Source: Gemmatimonas sp. (GTDB lineage Bacteria; Gemmatimonadota; Gemmatimonadetes; Gemmatimonadales; Gemmatimonadaceae). From it: 64,000 nucleotides of DNA. Numbering within the stretch: position 1 is the first letter of the stretch; the number at the start of each line of letters is the position of its first letter. This document shows, one piece after another, positions 46,708 to 56,115 of this stretch. The notes under the pieces are model-generated. The model was not told the origin of the DNA. It saw only the letters and a list, made by a program, of their open reading frames with translations, and did not search any database. Location of the stretch: positions 1 through 64,000 of the forward strand of contig JAAVWC010000006.1 of the NCBI GenBank assembly GCA_023910675.1, written 5' to 3'. The translations under genes were made by a program, and so were the position numbers.

Positions 46708-47403
46708 ATGAAGGCGATGATCATCCCCATAGTCATAGGTTTGCTGGCCGGTCTCGGCGGCGGATCGGGCTATTCGTACATGAAGGCATCGGCCAAGTAC
46801 GTGGCCGACTCCACGCGTATGGCCGACAGCGTGAAGACGCATGCGGATTCGGCGGCCCATGACAGCACCGGTCACGAAGGCGCCGACAGCACGGCGCACG
46901 GTGCAACGCCGGACAGTGCGTCGCTGGCCGAGCAAGCGCCCATGACGCCGGCCGACAGCCTGCGTGCGGTCGATGCCGCGCGGAAGGCAGGAACATCGCA
47001 CGCGCCGGAATCGCACGCGCCTACGGGTGCGCCCTCCAAGGCCGCTGCGCACGCCGAGGCGCCGGCCAAGCTCCCCGAGAGCAAGGCCCCCACGGCGACG
47101 CCGCCCGCAGCGAAGACGACCAGCACGTCCAAGACGACCACCGCGGCGGCATCGGTGAAGGATGCGCGCGACCAAGCGCTCCAGACGGCGCTTCCCGAAG
47201 CACGCCTCGCCAAGATCTTCGGCGCCATGCAGCCCAAGGACGCCGCAAAGGTGCTCGAGCAGATGACCGACGGCGACATCCGCGCGATTCTCGCGATGAT
47301 GAACGACCGTCAGGCCGCGTCGATTCTCACGGCGTTCTCGGCAGCGCGCGCCGCATCGATTACCAAAGGGGTCGTCAAGACCGCCGGAGGCGTCGCGCCG
47401 TGA
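46708..47403 (+). CDS. MotE-like protein (MgtE-N-type domain) of the flagellar operon
   Basis: 231 residues: an N-terminal membrane helix (IIPIVIGLLAGLGGGSGYSYM), a long Ala/Pro/Ser/Thr-rich periplasmic linker, and a C-terminal FliG-middle/MgtE_N-like domain (ARLAKIFGAMQPKDAAKVLEQMTDGDIRAILAMMNDRQAASILTAF). MotE proteins assist stator (MotC/MotB) placement in some bacteria. The linker composition is unusually low in complexity. Overlaps the next gene by 4 nt. Confidence 0.82.
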   Translation: MKAMIIPIVIGLLAGLGGGSGYSYMKASAKYVADSTRMADSVKTHADSAAHDSTGHEGADSTAHGATPDSASLAEQAPMTPADSLRAVDAARKAGTSHAPESHAPTGAPSKAAAHAEAPAKLPESKAPTATPPAAKTTSTSKTTTAAASVKDARDQALQTALPEARLAKIFGAMQPKDAAKVLEQMTDGDIRAILAMMNDRQAASILTAFSAARAASITKGVVKTAGGVAP

Positions 47404-49631
47404 GCGCCATGAACATCATGAGTAACGTTCCCCGCCCCACTGCCCGCGCGGCCGCGAAGGCCGACAAGGTGGTACGCGACGAACCGGTACGGGATATCCG
47501 TGTCGCGGGTGACACCGCCTCGACGGACGAGAAGCCGACGGTGAGCAAGGCGGAGTTCTCCGCGTTGCTGGCGCTGCTCGCCGGTCAGAGCGACCTGGGA
47601 CGCGCGGACCTCGTGAAGCAGTTGCCGCCGGAAAGCGCCAGGATCGTGGACCAGCTCCTCAGCGACGCCGCAGCGCCGATGACCGCCGAGAGTGAAGCCG
47701 CGAGCGAGGCATTGCGCTATGGCATGTTGAGCGTGCTGCCTCCCGAAGACACCGTCGGTACGCCGGTGACCGTCGGTACGCCGGTGACCGTCGGTACGCC
47801 GGTGACCGTCGGTACGCCGGTGATTGATCTCGCCGCCTACGCCAAAGCCCGCGACGTCAAAATGCAGACCGCGCTGGACGGACCGGGTCTACCCGGCGTG
47901 GCCGGCCTCGCCCGCGACAACAGCACCGCGACGGCCAAGGCCAACGAGCAGCCCATCGAGGCGCTGACGCGCGTGGCATCGCGCCGCAGTGCATCGCTGG
48001 AGCAGCTGCTCGCCGTGGGGGACGCCAAGGGAGCCGACGCGCGCGCCGCGCTCGACGCCATTCTCGCGCAGGCGGGAACGTCGAGCGGCCTGCGCTTGGC
48101 CGACGCCAAGCTGACGGCGCGCAAGATCATGTCGGACACCAGCGCCATATCGCTTGGCACCGACGACACCACCGATGCGATGGACGAGCTGACGACGCTG
48201 ACCACGCTGACGACGCCGACGGGCGGCGCCAATGCGGCGGCGCACGCGAATAGTCATGCCCTGGCGCACGCCGCGCATGCGTCGGCACTCGCCGCTACCA
48301 ACGCCGCGAGCGCCGCGAATCCCACGACGCCGATTTCCGATCTCAATGCCGTCGCGCCCGAGCTGCGCGAACGCGTGGCGCGCGTGATCGACCGCATGAA
48401 GCAGGAATACGGTCACGAGGTGAACGTCGTGGAAAGCGCGCGGTCGCAGGACCGTCAGGACTGGCTGTACGAACAGGGACGCACCCGCGGCGGCCCGGTG
48501 GTGACGTGGACGCGCGACTCCGCGCATACGCGTGGTGAAGCGGTCGACGTGATCATCGATGGCACGTGGGACAACCCCGATGGATTCGCCCGTCTGCAGC
48601 GGATTGCCCGCGAAGAAGGGCTTCGCACGCTCGGCATGAAGGATCCCGGCCACCTCGAGCTCGCCCACGGTCAGGGCATGCCCAATGACTTGACCGCCAA
48701 GGTCGACGCGCAGCGGATGCAGGCGGCCCGCGCAACGCCGATGTCGGTACCGACCGGCAATGCGGCCTCCGCCACCGTGGCACAGGTCGCGGGCGTGGCG
48801 CAGGTCGCGGGTATGGCGCGAGTGGCAGATTCCGCGTCGGCCGCACCGATGTCCGGCGAACCCGCCGGTATGGGCGTCGCGGCATACGCCGCACAGCAGC
48901 AGGCCGCGCGAGGTCAGAACCATCAGGGCAACAGCAACGCCTTCGGTCGCGGTGAACGCGACGAACAGGGGAAGCCACTGAACAACGGACGCGCCCTCGG
49001 CCACGACAAGGAGCATGGTGACCACGCGCCCGCGTTTGGCGCCATACACACCAACAGCACGACGCCGTCGGTGCCGGGCGTGGAGCGCGCGGCGCAGGCG
49101 AGCCCCGCGGCGGGGAGTGAACAGGCGCAGCGTGTGTCGGACATTCAGCAGATGCGTGCGGATGCACCCGTCACGTCGATCAACCGCATGACGCTCAAGG
49201 TGGATGGCGCCAACGGCGTACAGCAGGAAGTCACCGTCGATTTGCGCGGCAACGTGGTCAGCACGCAGATCACTACCGACGCTTCCACCGCCGACCGCAT
49301 GCGCCTTCGCACCGCCGATCTGCAGGACGCGCTGGGCCGTCACGGCCTTGAGTCGGAGTCGGTGAAGATCAGCGGGCTCAAGCCGGTAGACGCGAGTGAA
49401 TCTGCCCGTTCCGTGGGCAGCGAGCGTGATGCCGTGAAGATTACGGCGGCACAGCAAGGCACCGCGCAGGATGGCTCGTCGCGTGACGGGCAGCGCGATC
49501 GCGCGCCGTCGCGCGAATGGAACCAGGAAGAACAGCGTCGCGAACAGGCGGCTCGCGCACGTGACCAGCGTGAACAGCAGGAGCGTCAGCAGCGTTCGCG
49601 TCGCCCCGAATTCCTTTACGAGAACCTGTGA
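47400..49631 (+). CDS. fliK: FliK-like hook-length protein with embedded M15 zinc-peptidase domain
   Basis: 743 residues, located where fliK always lies (before flgD). The C-terminal part 590-665 (VTVDLRGNVVSTQITTD, MRLRTADLQDALGRHGLESESVKI) matches the FliK Flg_hook domain. Residues 318-425 are a peptidase M15/VanY-like domain: VVESARSQDRQDWLYEQG, the zinc motif SxHxxGxAxD (His376, Asp383), and DPGHLE with Asp415 and His418, the DxxH seen in Ply500-type endopeptidases. All ligands are intact. A region of four TVGTPV repeats lies at 119-141, and low-complexity linkers join the parts. The rod-penetrating hydrolase FlgJ is not in the window, so the fused peptidase may open the peptidoglycan (inference). 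Confidence 0.85.
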   Translation: MSAMNIMSNVPRPTARAAAKADKVVRDEPVRDIRVAGDTASTDEKPTVSKAEFSALLALLAGQSDLGRADLVKQLPPESARIVDQLLSDAAAPMTAESEAASEALRYGMLSVLPPEDTVGTPVTVGTPVTVGTPVTVGTPVIDLAAYAKARDVKMQTALDGPGLPGVAGLARDNSTATAKANEQPIEALTRVASRRSASLEQLLAVGDAKGADARAALDAILAQAGTSSGLRLADAKLTARKIMSDTSAISLGTDDTTDAMDELTTLTTLTTPTGGANAAAHANSHALAHAAHASALAATNAASAANPTTPISDLNAVAPELRERVARVIDRMKQEYGHEVNVVESARSQDRQDWLYEQGRTRGGPVVTWTRDSAHTRGEAVDVIIDGTWDNPDGFARLQRIAREEGLRTLGMKDPGHLELAHGQGMPNDLTAKVDAQRMQAARATPMSVPTGNAASATVAQVAGVAQVAGMARVADSASAAPMSGEPAGMGVAAYAAQQQAARGQNHQGNSNAFGRGERDEQGKPLNNGRALGHDKEHGDHAPAFGAIHTNSTTPSVPGVERAAQASPAAGSEQAQRVSDIQQMRADAPVTSINRMTLKVDGANGVQQEVTVDLRGNVVSTQITTDASTADRMRLRTADLQDALGRHGLESESVKISGLKPVDASESARSVGSERDAVKITAAQQGTAQDGSSRDGQRDRAPSREWNQEEQRREQAARARDQREQQERQQRSRRPEFLYENL
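47751..47822 (+). repeat. Four perfect 18-bp tandem repeats inside fliK
   Basis: The unit accgtcggtacgccggtg occurs four times with no mismatch and encodes TVGTPV x4. In-frame length variation by slippage is expected. Confidence 0.95.
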
Positions 49632-50374
49632 TGATCACCTCCACCCGCAACAGCTTCGCCTCGCCGGCGTTCAATACGACGGCACCCGCAACGACACCGG
49701 CGACGGGCAATCCGTCGGCGGCTGTCGCAGCGCCTCCGAAAGGTAAGGCCGAGCCATCCGCACCACGCACCCTCCCGACGAATTCGAAGGTGATGGGGCG
49801 TGACGAGTTTCTCAAGTTGTTCGTCGCTCAGCTCAAGAATCAGGATCCGACCAACCCGATGGACGGCAAGGACATGGCGGCGCAGCTCGCGCAGTTCTCG
49901 ACCGTCGAGCAGCTGATCGCGATGAACAAACGAGCGGATGAACTCGCGCCGCTCGTGGAAGGCCAGATGGCGATGGCCGCCGTCGGCAAGATCGGCGTGA
50001 CGCCCGGCAACAGCACCTTCGTCGATTCCACCGGCAAGGGCACGATCGTCGTCGATACCGGCGCCAAAGTCGGCCCGGGACGTGTCACCGTCACCAACAG
50101 CAAAGGGGAAGTCGTCGGCACCGCCAACGTGACGGTGAACAAGACAGGACAGCAGTCGTTCGAGCTCGGATCGCTCTTCACCGCTCCACCGCTCGCGGCT
50201 GGGCAATACAGCTACAAGTTCGAGGTCGCAACGGATGGCGGCCAGTTCCAGGCAGTCACCACGTACACGGCCGGTCGGATAACGGGCATGCGGTACGAAC
50301 AGGGCACCCCCATCCTGACAATCGGCGACAGCATCAACGTACCGATGTCAAAGCTCACGCAGATTCGCGGCTGA
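49628..50374 (+). CDS. flgD: Flagellar hook assembly scaffold FlgD
   Basis: 248 residues. N-terminal conserved block MGRDEFLKLFVAQLKNQDPTNPMDGKDMAAQLAQFSTVEQL is FlgD; the C-terminal part has the tudor/fibronectin-like domain ending TYTAGRITGM. It caps the growing hook. GTG start overlapping the fliK stop; the ATG three bases on is equivalent. Confidence 0.95.
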   Translation: MMITSTRNSFASPAFNTTAPATTPATGNPSAAVAAPPKGKAEPSAPRTLPTNSKVMGRDEFLKLFVAQLKNQDPTNPMDGKDMAAQLAQFSTVEQLIAMNKRADELAPLVEGQMAMAAVGKIGVTPGNSTFVDSTGKGTIVVDTGAKVGPGRVTVTNSKGEVVGTANVTVNKTGQQSFELGSLFTAPPLAAGQYSYKFEVATDGGQFQAVTTYTAGRITGMRYEQGTPILTIGDSINVPMSKLTQIRG

Positions 50375-54326: not shown

Positions 54327-54961
54327 ATGTTGATCGCCGGACTTGGGGTGGTGGCCGCCCTCGCCTTCGTGCTCGGACTTGGCGCCGTGTGCCTGTGGGC
54401 ACTCAAGCGTTGGGGGGCGGGCGCCATGGGCGCGAAGAGCCGCCTGGCCGTCGAGGTCGTGCAGCGCGTGCCGCTTGGCCCCAAGGCAGGCTTGACCGTC
54501 GTGCGCGTCGGCGAGAAGGTCGTGGCGCTCTCGGTGAGCGATGGCGCGGTGACGACGCTCTTCGAACTGGACGAAGCCGATCGGCAGCGCGTGATTGCCA
54601 GCAGCACCGTCGCGCAGCCGCAGGCGTCGAGTGCGGAAGCCATGGCGGCGCTTGCGGCGTTCTCGCCGTCGTTCTCCGGCGCGTCGCTCTCGAGCAAGTT
54701 CGGCGCGATGCTGGGCAAAGCCGTGGCGCAGTCGGCGTCTCCGGCTATCGCGGCGGTCGATGACGCCGATACGGAGATCAGCCTGACGGCAGCAGCGTCG
54801 GCGGCGCCCTGCGGTGCAGGTGGTTCCGTTCACGCTCAACGAACGTTCGGAAATTCCCGGCTTTCTCACGGCGCCGATCACGACGAGCCATGGCGCGCCG
54901 GCTCACCTATTCGGCCGCCGCCCGACGCACCGCCGCCCCGCAGGACGGGGACTTCCGCAGC
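54327..54961 (+). CDS. fliO: Flagellar biosynthesis protein FliO, frame disrupted; 3' end uncertain
   Basis: N-terminal membrane helix (LIAGLGVVAALAFVLGLGAVCLWALKRW) followed by the FliO domain (LAVEVVQRVPLGPKAGLTVVRVGEKVVALSVSDGAVTTLFEL). The first frame is sound to about residue 160 (TEISLTAAASAAP). There a CCC run (54807-54809) breaks the frame; with CC the reading becomes APAVQVVPFTLNERSEIPGFLTAPITT. The stop then cannot be located with confidence, so the end is set at the probable fliP start. A long uninterrupted frame over this region is not one protein. Confidence 0.75.
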
Positions 54962-55350
54962 ATGCTCGGCGTCTCGCTGCGCAGCGCCACACGGCTCGCG
55001 GCCTTCGCCGGACTCGTCATGCTGGCGGGAGCATCGTCGCTGTCTGCACAGGCGGCGCCGCCAGCCTCGCCGCCTGGTCGCTCCGCCCGCCGCACAGCGC
55101 ACACAGCGCACACCGCCTGCGACGACGGCGGCGCCCGCCGCCACACCGACGACGCCGGCCAACGCCGCGCAGACGCCGGTTGTGATTGACCTGCCCAAAC
55201 TCGATCTGCCGCCGCTGACGCCCATCACGGTGGGTCGTCAGGCGCCGGTCCTCAACAAGGGCGCGCCCGTCCCAGCCGCGCGCACCTCGGCCCGGCAATG
55301 GCGCCGATCTCACCGCGCAGGCGGCCGCAGCAAAGCGTCCGACGAACGCG
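54890..55350 (+). other. Probable displaced fliP 5' end (signal peptide and linker) with two frame breaks
   Basis: A signal-peptide-like segment LGVSLRSATRLAAFAGLVMLAGASSLSAQA (ATG at 54962) is in frame with neither the linker VVIDLPKLDLPPLTPITVG that follows it nor the fliP core. One base removed near 55060-55085 and one near 55289 would join signal, Pro/Ala linker and core into one FliP with an N-terminal signal sequence, as is normal for FliP. Confidence 0.65.
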
Positions 55351-56115
55351 ATGGTCGTCGACTCGGCAAAGGACTCGCGCAACGCTCAGGCAGCGAGCCC
55401 TGCACCGATTGCCGCCGACGACGCCATCATGCGCATGATGCCGCAGATGGACGTAAAGCTGGGGGGGAATGGCGAAGACGGTGGCCTGCGACTGAACGGC
55501 ACTGTGGGCATCGTGGTGATGATGGGGCTGCTCACGCTGCTCCCCACGCTCATCCTCATGATGACGGGCTTCACCCGCATCCTGATCGTGCTGCAGTTCC
55601 TCAAGCAGGCCATGGGCACCCAGAGCGCGCCGCCAGGGCAGCTGCTCGCGGCGATGGCCCTGTTACTCACGGGGTTCGTCATGGGCCCCACGCTCGCCGA
55701 AATGAATCGCACCGCCATCACGCCATGGCTGGATGGCAAGATCACGCAGGTCGACATGATGAAGGAAGGCGTGAAGCCGATGCGTGGGTTCATGCTGCGG
55801 CAAACACGCGAGTCGGATGTGAAGGCGTTCGTCGAACTCAGTCGTATGCCGCGCCCGGCGACCGTCGATGATGTGCCACTGCATGTGCTCATGTCCGCGT
55901 TCGTCGCGAGCGAGCTGCGTACGGCGTTTCAGATCGGCTTTGCGATTTACCTGCCGTTTATCATCATCGACACCGTCGTCGCGAGTGTGCTCATGAGTAT
56001 GGGCATGTTCATGCTGCCACCGGCCATGATTTCATTGCCATTCAAGCTGCTGTTGTTCGTGCTGGTGGATGGATGGAGCCTCACCATTACGAGCCTGGTG
56101 CAGAGCTTCAAGTAG
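55351..56115 (+). CDS. fliP: Flagellar type III export gate protein FliP
   Basis: 255 residues in the intact frame. Four membrane helices and the FliP signatures: LPTLILMMTGFTRILIVLQFLKQAMGTQSAPPGQLLAAMALLLTGFVM, KAFVELSRMP, LHVLMSAFVASELRTAFQIGFAIYLPFIIIDTVV and MLPPAMISLPFKLLLFVLVDGW. The true N terminus, with its signal peptide, is probably encoded upstream in shifted frames. Last gene before a strong terminator. Confidence 0.9.
   Translation: MVVDSAKDSRNAQAASPAPIAADDAIMRMMPQMDVKLGGNGEDGGLRLNGTVGIVVMMGLLTLLPTLILMMTGFTRILIVLQFLKQAMGTQSAPPGQLLAAMALLLTGFVMGPTLAEMNRTAITPWLDGKITQVDMMKEGVKPMRGFMLRQTRESDVKAFVELSRMPRPATVDDVPLHVLMSAFVASELRTAFQIGFAIYLPFIIIDTVVASVLMSMGMFMLPPAMISLPFKLLLFVLVDGWSLTITSLVQSFK

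Follow-up and report, generated by a model that had tools for sequence, protein, structure and literature searches.

An M15 peptidase domain inside a fliK-type gene

The window, the whole 64,000-nucleotide stretch of Gemmatimonas DNA analysed here, holds a flagellar operon with the order fliJ, an MgtE_N-like gene, a fliK-type gene and flgD. The fliK-type gene, an open reading frame of 743 amino acids with an embedded M15 peptidase domain, occupies 47400..49631 on the plus strand, on which its two neighbours also lie, and has alternative starts at a GTG (47400) or an ATG (47409). Just upstream is a MotE/MgtE_N-like gene (46708..47403; PF03448, E 2e-7), and directly downstream is flgD, the hook cap gene (49628..50374; PF03963, E 1.3e-22). 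The place between fliJ and flgD is the one expected for FliK, and the position before flgD on which the earlier note had relied recurs in the relatives, where flgD directly follows the M15-bearing fliK wherever a contig holds both. Within the operon, Pfam names FliE, FliJ, the MgtE_N-like protein, the fliK-type gene, FlgD and FliO, while flgC, fliF, fliG, fliH, fliI, flgE, fliL, fliM, fliN, fliP, fliR and flhB are assigned from position and translation only. The FliO reading frame continues at 54327-55871 into an apparent other frame before fliP, possibly a frameshift or an assembly error.

The encoded protein comprises a helical N-terminal region without a Pfam family (residues 45-235; 47532..48104), the M15 (L-Ala-D-Glu endopeptidase-like) domain (residues 318-425; 48351..48674) and a FliK-type substrate-specificity domain toward the C terminus (residues 592-660; 49173..49379). 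Within the N-terminal region, an 18-bp unit encoding VGTPVT/I occurs four times in nearly identical form (47752-47831); these repeats are absent from 27 aligned relatives. On the 3′ side of the M15 domain, alignments and a low-confidence model place an Ala/Val repeat of the VAxVAxVARVA type (residues 458-475; 48771..48824), in which Ala461 and Ala473 are invariant despite the low model confidence; hook or export proteins may bind at this repeat.

Both the SxHxxGxAxD and the DxxH motif of M15 enzymes are present with all four active-site residues. From the sequence and the relatives' alignment, the predicted zinc ligands are His376 (48525..48527) and Asp383 (48546..48548) of SAHTRGEAVD together with His418 (48651..48653) of DPGHLE, in which Asp415 (48642..48644) is the predicted catalytic acid; these roles are presumably those of the M15 family at large. 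The model of the isolated domain adopts a predicted M15 fold close to that of L-Ala-D-Glu endopeptidases, and a Foldseek search with the full-length 743-residue model returned no match at E≤0.001, whereas the isolated domain did match. The nearest sequences are phage endolysins: PHROGs endolysin families match residues 322-386 (E 2.4e-13), 313-610 (1.3e-12) and 313-473 (1.7e-10). Against the PDB, LysB4 and Ply500 are found by phmmer with the window protein (E 0.001 and 0.021), by a profile of 28 sequences (8.5e-7 and 2.6e-7) and by a profile of 70 M15 domains (6.8e-12 and 1e-11); the first zinc motif aligns by sequence to both enzymes in an alignment that does not reach the DxxH motif. The earlier note's proposal of an M15 domain at residues 318-425 is thus borne out by these matches and by the modelled fold. 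The search against Peptidase_M15 that it proposed succeeds for the relatives, among whose 70 domains Peptidase_M15_3 is found in 42 and VanY in 41 at E≤0.01, but fails for the window's protein, in which no Pfam M15-clan profile matches; NCBIfam has no family for the protein. By its fold and residues, the domain is predicted to cleave stem peptides at the L-Ala-D-Glu bond.

Viral contigs were searched for a source of the M15 subgroup; 149 stretches matched and none was confirmed. One protein of 654 amino acids (P0188) has a C-terminal M15 domain of similar subtype without a FliK domain and matches endolysin PHROGs, which makes it a possible lead to a phage source.

The sole Pfam match of the 743-residue protein at E≤0.01 is Flg_hook (PF02120) at residues 610-658, with 17.7 bits and E 0.0032, below the curated cut-off of 29.8; the rod-binding domain of FlgJ (PF10135) does not match. 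Across 200 genomes of the phylum, Flg_hook exceeds its cut-off in 20, namely six of family f10, three of f2 and 11 that carry the M15 fusion, and in those 11 it shares the reading frame with M15; the window's own genome gave no Flg_hook match at E≤0.001 in this survey. The FliK-type C-terminal domain claimed in the earlier note therefore stands mainly through the relatives, the window's own match being under the cut-off. The gene product is, in our view, almost certainly a FliK with an M15 domain whose active site is kept, and it likely sets the length of the flagellar hook. It differs from the FliK and PscP length proteins (PF02120) in its mid-chain peptidase, and from the M15 L-Ala-D-Glu endopeptidases Ply500, LysB4, ChiX and CwlK in that the enzyme lies inside a flagellar protein rather than in a free endolysin or autolysin.

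Conservation and distribution of the fusion

Relatives were collected by protein search (the best 120 of 332) and by profile (82, of which 68 were new). Among the 188 proteins from the matches listed, the M15 domain is present in 187, the FliK C-terminal domain in 186 and both in 185. Many of the sources are metagenome-assembled, as an assembly or gene-calling artefact fusing two genes would have it, but the single-frame fusion also occurs in two genomes, L006 and L008, that each consist of one contig (4.64 and 5.18 Mb); together with the 185 of 188 co-occurrences, this refutes such a joining and leaves it a negligible probability. Source records name these proteins 'M15 family metallopeptidase', CwlK, YcbK (DUF882) or hypothetical, and FliK is absent from the names shown for the matches listed, so the flagellar side of the protein has been hidden. 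The hosts include the cultured G. aurantiaca (P0057) and G. groenlandica (P0016).

The active site is kept as the earlier note had read it in the window. Among the matches listed, the His, Asp, Asp and His are all present in 187 of 187 M15 domains; an alignment of relatives has His376 invariant in 121 of 121 sequences, and 39 of its 51 invariant columns (a hand count from the list) fall within residues 333-418. Of 81 M15 rows aligned from fetched loci, 70 of them distinct, 77 are intact, two have Gln instead of His at the first zinc ligand (L009 and L070, one gene of genome G172), one is decayed beside a retained FliK (L106, genome G040) and one is a fragment (L100). The G040 and G172 genes are naturally occurring controls on whether the M15 enzyme is needed. 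A non-catalytic role, in which M15 is a wall anchor or extra ruler length that pauses or tethers FliK, would suit the position of the domain, which has the N-terminal region before it and the switch domain after it, as well as its retention in G172 without one zinc ligand. We nevertheless consider this role improbable, because a spacer would not need active-site residues, and all four are found in every one of the 187 domains listed.

Substitution rates were compared between the window gene and five relatives, two of which are close to each other. Over the five pairs, dN/dS is 0.10-0.17 for M15, 0.03-0.30 for the FliK C-terminal domain, 0.23-0.33 for the N-terminal region, 0.15-0.43 for the linker and 0.17-0.37 for the tail; the M15 value is below that of the N-terminal region in five of five pairs and below that of the FliK domain in two of five. 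Purifying selection acts on the M15 domain.

We searched 200 Gemmatimonadota genomes, the phylum to which the genome-level search was confined, with the FliK-M15 protein, FlgD and the rod-binding family, and counted a genome as flagellated if it matched FlgD (55 genomes) or the rod-binding family (57), which gave 59 with either. The FliK-M15 protein matched in 46 genomes; two of these, G032 (E 2.1e-4) and G180 (9.5e-6), have neither FlgD nor the rod-binding family and were set aside as probably other M15 proteins. At E≤1e-10 the fusion is found in 44 of 59 flagellated genomes and in 0 of 141 others, which answers the earlier note's call for a survey of FliK in related genomes. The match in G170 lies at the start of a contig and covers the FliK domain alone, which leaves 43 of the 44 in which M15 itself is seen. 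By family, the fusion occurs in 38 of 39 flagellated genomes of f1, 0 of 7 of f2, 2 of 2 of f4, 4 of 5 of f5 and 0 of 6 of f10; the fifth f5 genome (G188) has flgD at a contig end, and its fliK may thus be missing from the assembly. Four f2 loci inspected contain a FliK without M15, and an M15 profile found none in the six fliK-flgD loci of f10. The fusion is a conserved feature of several Gemmatimonadota families. In a FlgD tree of 49 rows, from 49 of the 55 FlgD genomes, f2 forms one clade and f10 another, and two changes suffice for the distribution; because the deep order is poorly supported, the tree leaves loss in f2 and gain after f2 unsettled. Organism names shown among the matches listed are all Gemmatimonad*, most matches bearing no name. 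Two loci titled Kuenenia stuttgartiensis and Planctomycetota (L079 and L100) have the same M15-FliK adjoining flgD, split over two frames in L100, and may be misassigned metagenome bins.

FlgJ and the supply of wall enzymes

The earlier note had placed wall cutting with a FlgJ that it did not see in the window. FlgJ is not missing: the genome encodes it elsewhere, between flgI and flgN, as a protein of 116 amino acids consisting of the rod-binding domain alone, so what stood of that claim is the lack of an enzyme on FlgJ. Among 57 FlgJ genes inspected, 51 (f1, f2, f4 and f5) end 5-56 in-frame residues after the rod-binding domain, and none of these 51 matched a lytic transglycosylase (SLT) profile built from f10. 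In all six f10 genes (L039, L041, L046, L050, L054 and L126), an in-frame SLT domain comes after the rod-binding domain, as is borne out by the Pfam SLT coordinates and the lengths of the frames. Within a single phylum, then, FlgJ bears a wall enzyme in one lineage and FliK bears one in others.

This contrast bears on the possibility that the enzyme acts outside the cell. FliK leaves through the hook once the hook is past the outer membrane. Hook-released FliK could on this ground serve as a secreted endolysin against neighbouring cells or wall debris, and its M15 domain is indeed closest to phage endolysins; the exit through the hook is consistent with part of PMC13344023. The few copies per flagellum speak against such a use, and the placement of the enzyme on FlgJ in f10 and on FliK in f1, f4 and f5 points inward, so that we hold it unlikely.

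Dual-domain FlgJ of beta- and gamma-proteobacteria, with a rod cap and a muramidase, is an export substrate with a wall enzyme, as described in parts of PMC8517470 and PMC11247099. The FliK described here resembles it as a predicted flagellar export substrate that also bears a wall enzyme, and differs in that the enzyme sits on FliK, is a peptidase and not a muramidase, and is accompanied by a bare FlgJ. Single-domain FlgJ requires an enzyme from a separate protein, such as SltF or Borrelia BB0259 (in part of PMC8517470). The bare FlgJ is shared with those systems; unlike them, the candidate enzyme here is fused to FliK, and f1 overall shows no increase in SLT genes with flagella. Flagellated f1 genomes (39) have a mean of 2.9 SLT genes and the others (30) a mean of 3.1, with at least one in each of the 69. 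Counts for flagellated and other genomes are 1,2,1,1 and 1,1,1,1,3 in genus g2, and 1,2,2,2 and 2,2,2 in g8; g10, with 3,3 and 2,1,1, runs counter to the family-wide trend. A dedicated SltF-type enzyme is not favoured by these counts for f1 overall, although the number does track flagella in g10. The genome-wide count of wall hydrolases covered SLT alone, and another hydrolase may serve instead. No wall hydrolase family was found among the scanned flagellar-cluster proteins, which are part of the cluster's open reading frames, or among the scanned flagellar-cluster genes of the f2 genome G044.

The f2 genomes have an enzyme-less FlgJ and no M15-FliK and are still flagellated, which implies that an unlinked enzyme can open the wall; together with G040 and G172, which also do without an intact M15-FliK, they indicate that the M15 domain can be replaced. 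An unlinked hydrolase might then make the main hole, with FliK as an accessory remodeller, itself active on peptidoglycan, that only enlarges or completes the opening, for instance to admit the P and L rings. The f2 genomes, the natural losses in G040 and G172, the SLT genes present throughout f1 and the higher SLT counts of flagellated g10 genomes are all in keeping with this; the strong conservation across families, the purifying selection and an SLT number that does not follow flagella in f1 overall weigh against it. We rate it as the less probable course, at somewhere near one chance in five.

A candidate route for the rod through the wall

Our main reading, to which we assign a probability of roughly 0.55, is that the FliK-type protein with its M15 domain is likely exported through the flagellum, would cut peptidoglycan where the rod crosses the wall and would in this way open the wall for the rod. 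We infer type III export because the N terminus has no Sec-type signal by eye and the gene lies in the flagellar operon; the FliK N terminus would direct the protein to the flagellar type III apparatus, and the M15 domain is assumed to unfold for passage through the narrow export channel. Early molecules, exported while the rod is still periplasmic, would refold there and bind zinc, and M15 would cleave the L-Ala-D-Glu bond like its closest structural relatives. This would open the mesh to the rod as well as to the P and L rings, which the enzyme-less FlgJ would probably not manage alone. Later molecules would exit via the hook, with the C-terminal FliK domain triggering the export switch, as it does in flagella elsewhere.

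A precedent comes from Salmonella, in which FliK carries active beta-lactamase into the periplasm (part of PMC13344023; see also PMC11247099). In the same portion of PMC13344023, periplasmic FliK-Bla is highest in rod mutants and, at a level like that of wild type, roughly four times lower in late-assembly mutants. The natural FliK-M15 may follow this delivery logic with a wall enzyme as its cargo; the lower wild-type level counts against the main reading. Gemmatimonas species make flagella (parts of PMC9862903 and PMC10581226), and microscopy shows them on G. phototrophica and G. groenlandica (PMC9862903, in part).

The observation made in the earlier note is confirmed and its interpretation supported, with enzyme activity and flagellar export being predictions and a need for the domain conjectural. 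No FliK with a peptidase was found described, as the note had supposed, in a literature search of titles and the beginnings of abstracts that lay mostly outside subscription papers.

The routes of the rod through peptidoglycan known so far are a FlgJ with a muramidase domain and separate transglycosylases. The chances are evenly balanced, in our judgement, that in most flagellated Gemmatimonadota sampled an endolysin-like peptidase on FliK, and not on FlgJ, clears the path of the rod in a protein that then measures the hook. The cultured Gemmatimonas hosts make the M15-FliK reading testable. If it is true, FliK would have a second job, with length control and wall opening in one exported protein, and a peptidase-bearing ruler would be a third solution to opening the wall, acting on another bond and delivered by another route.
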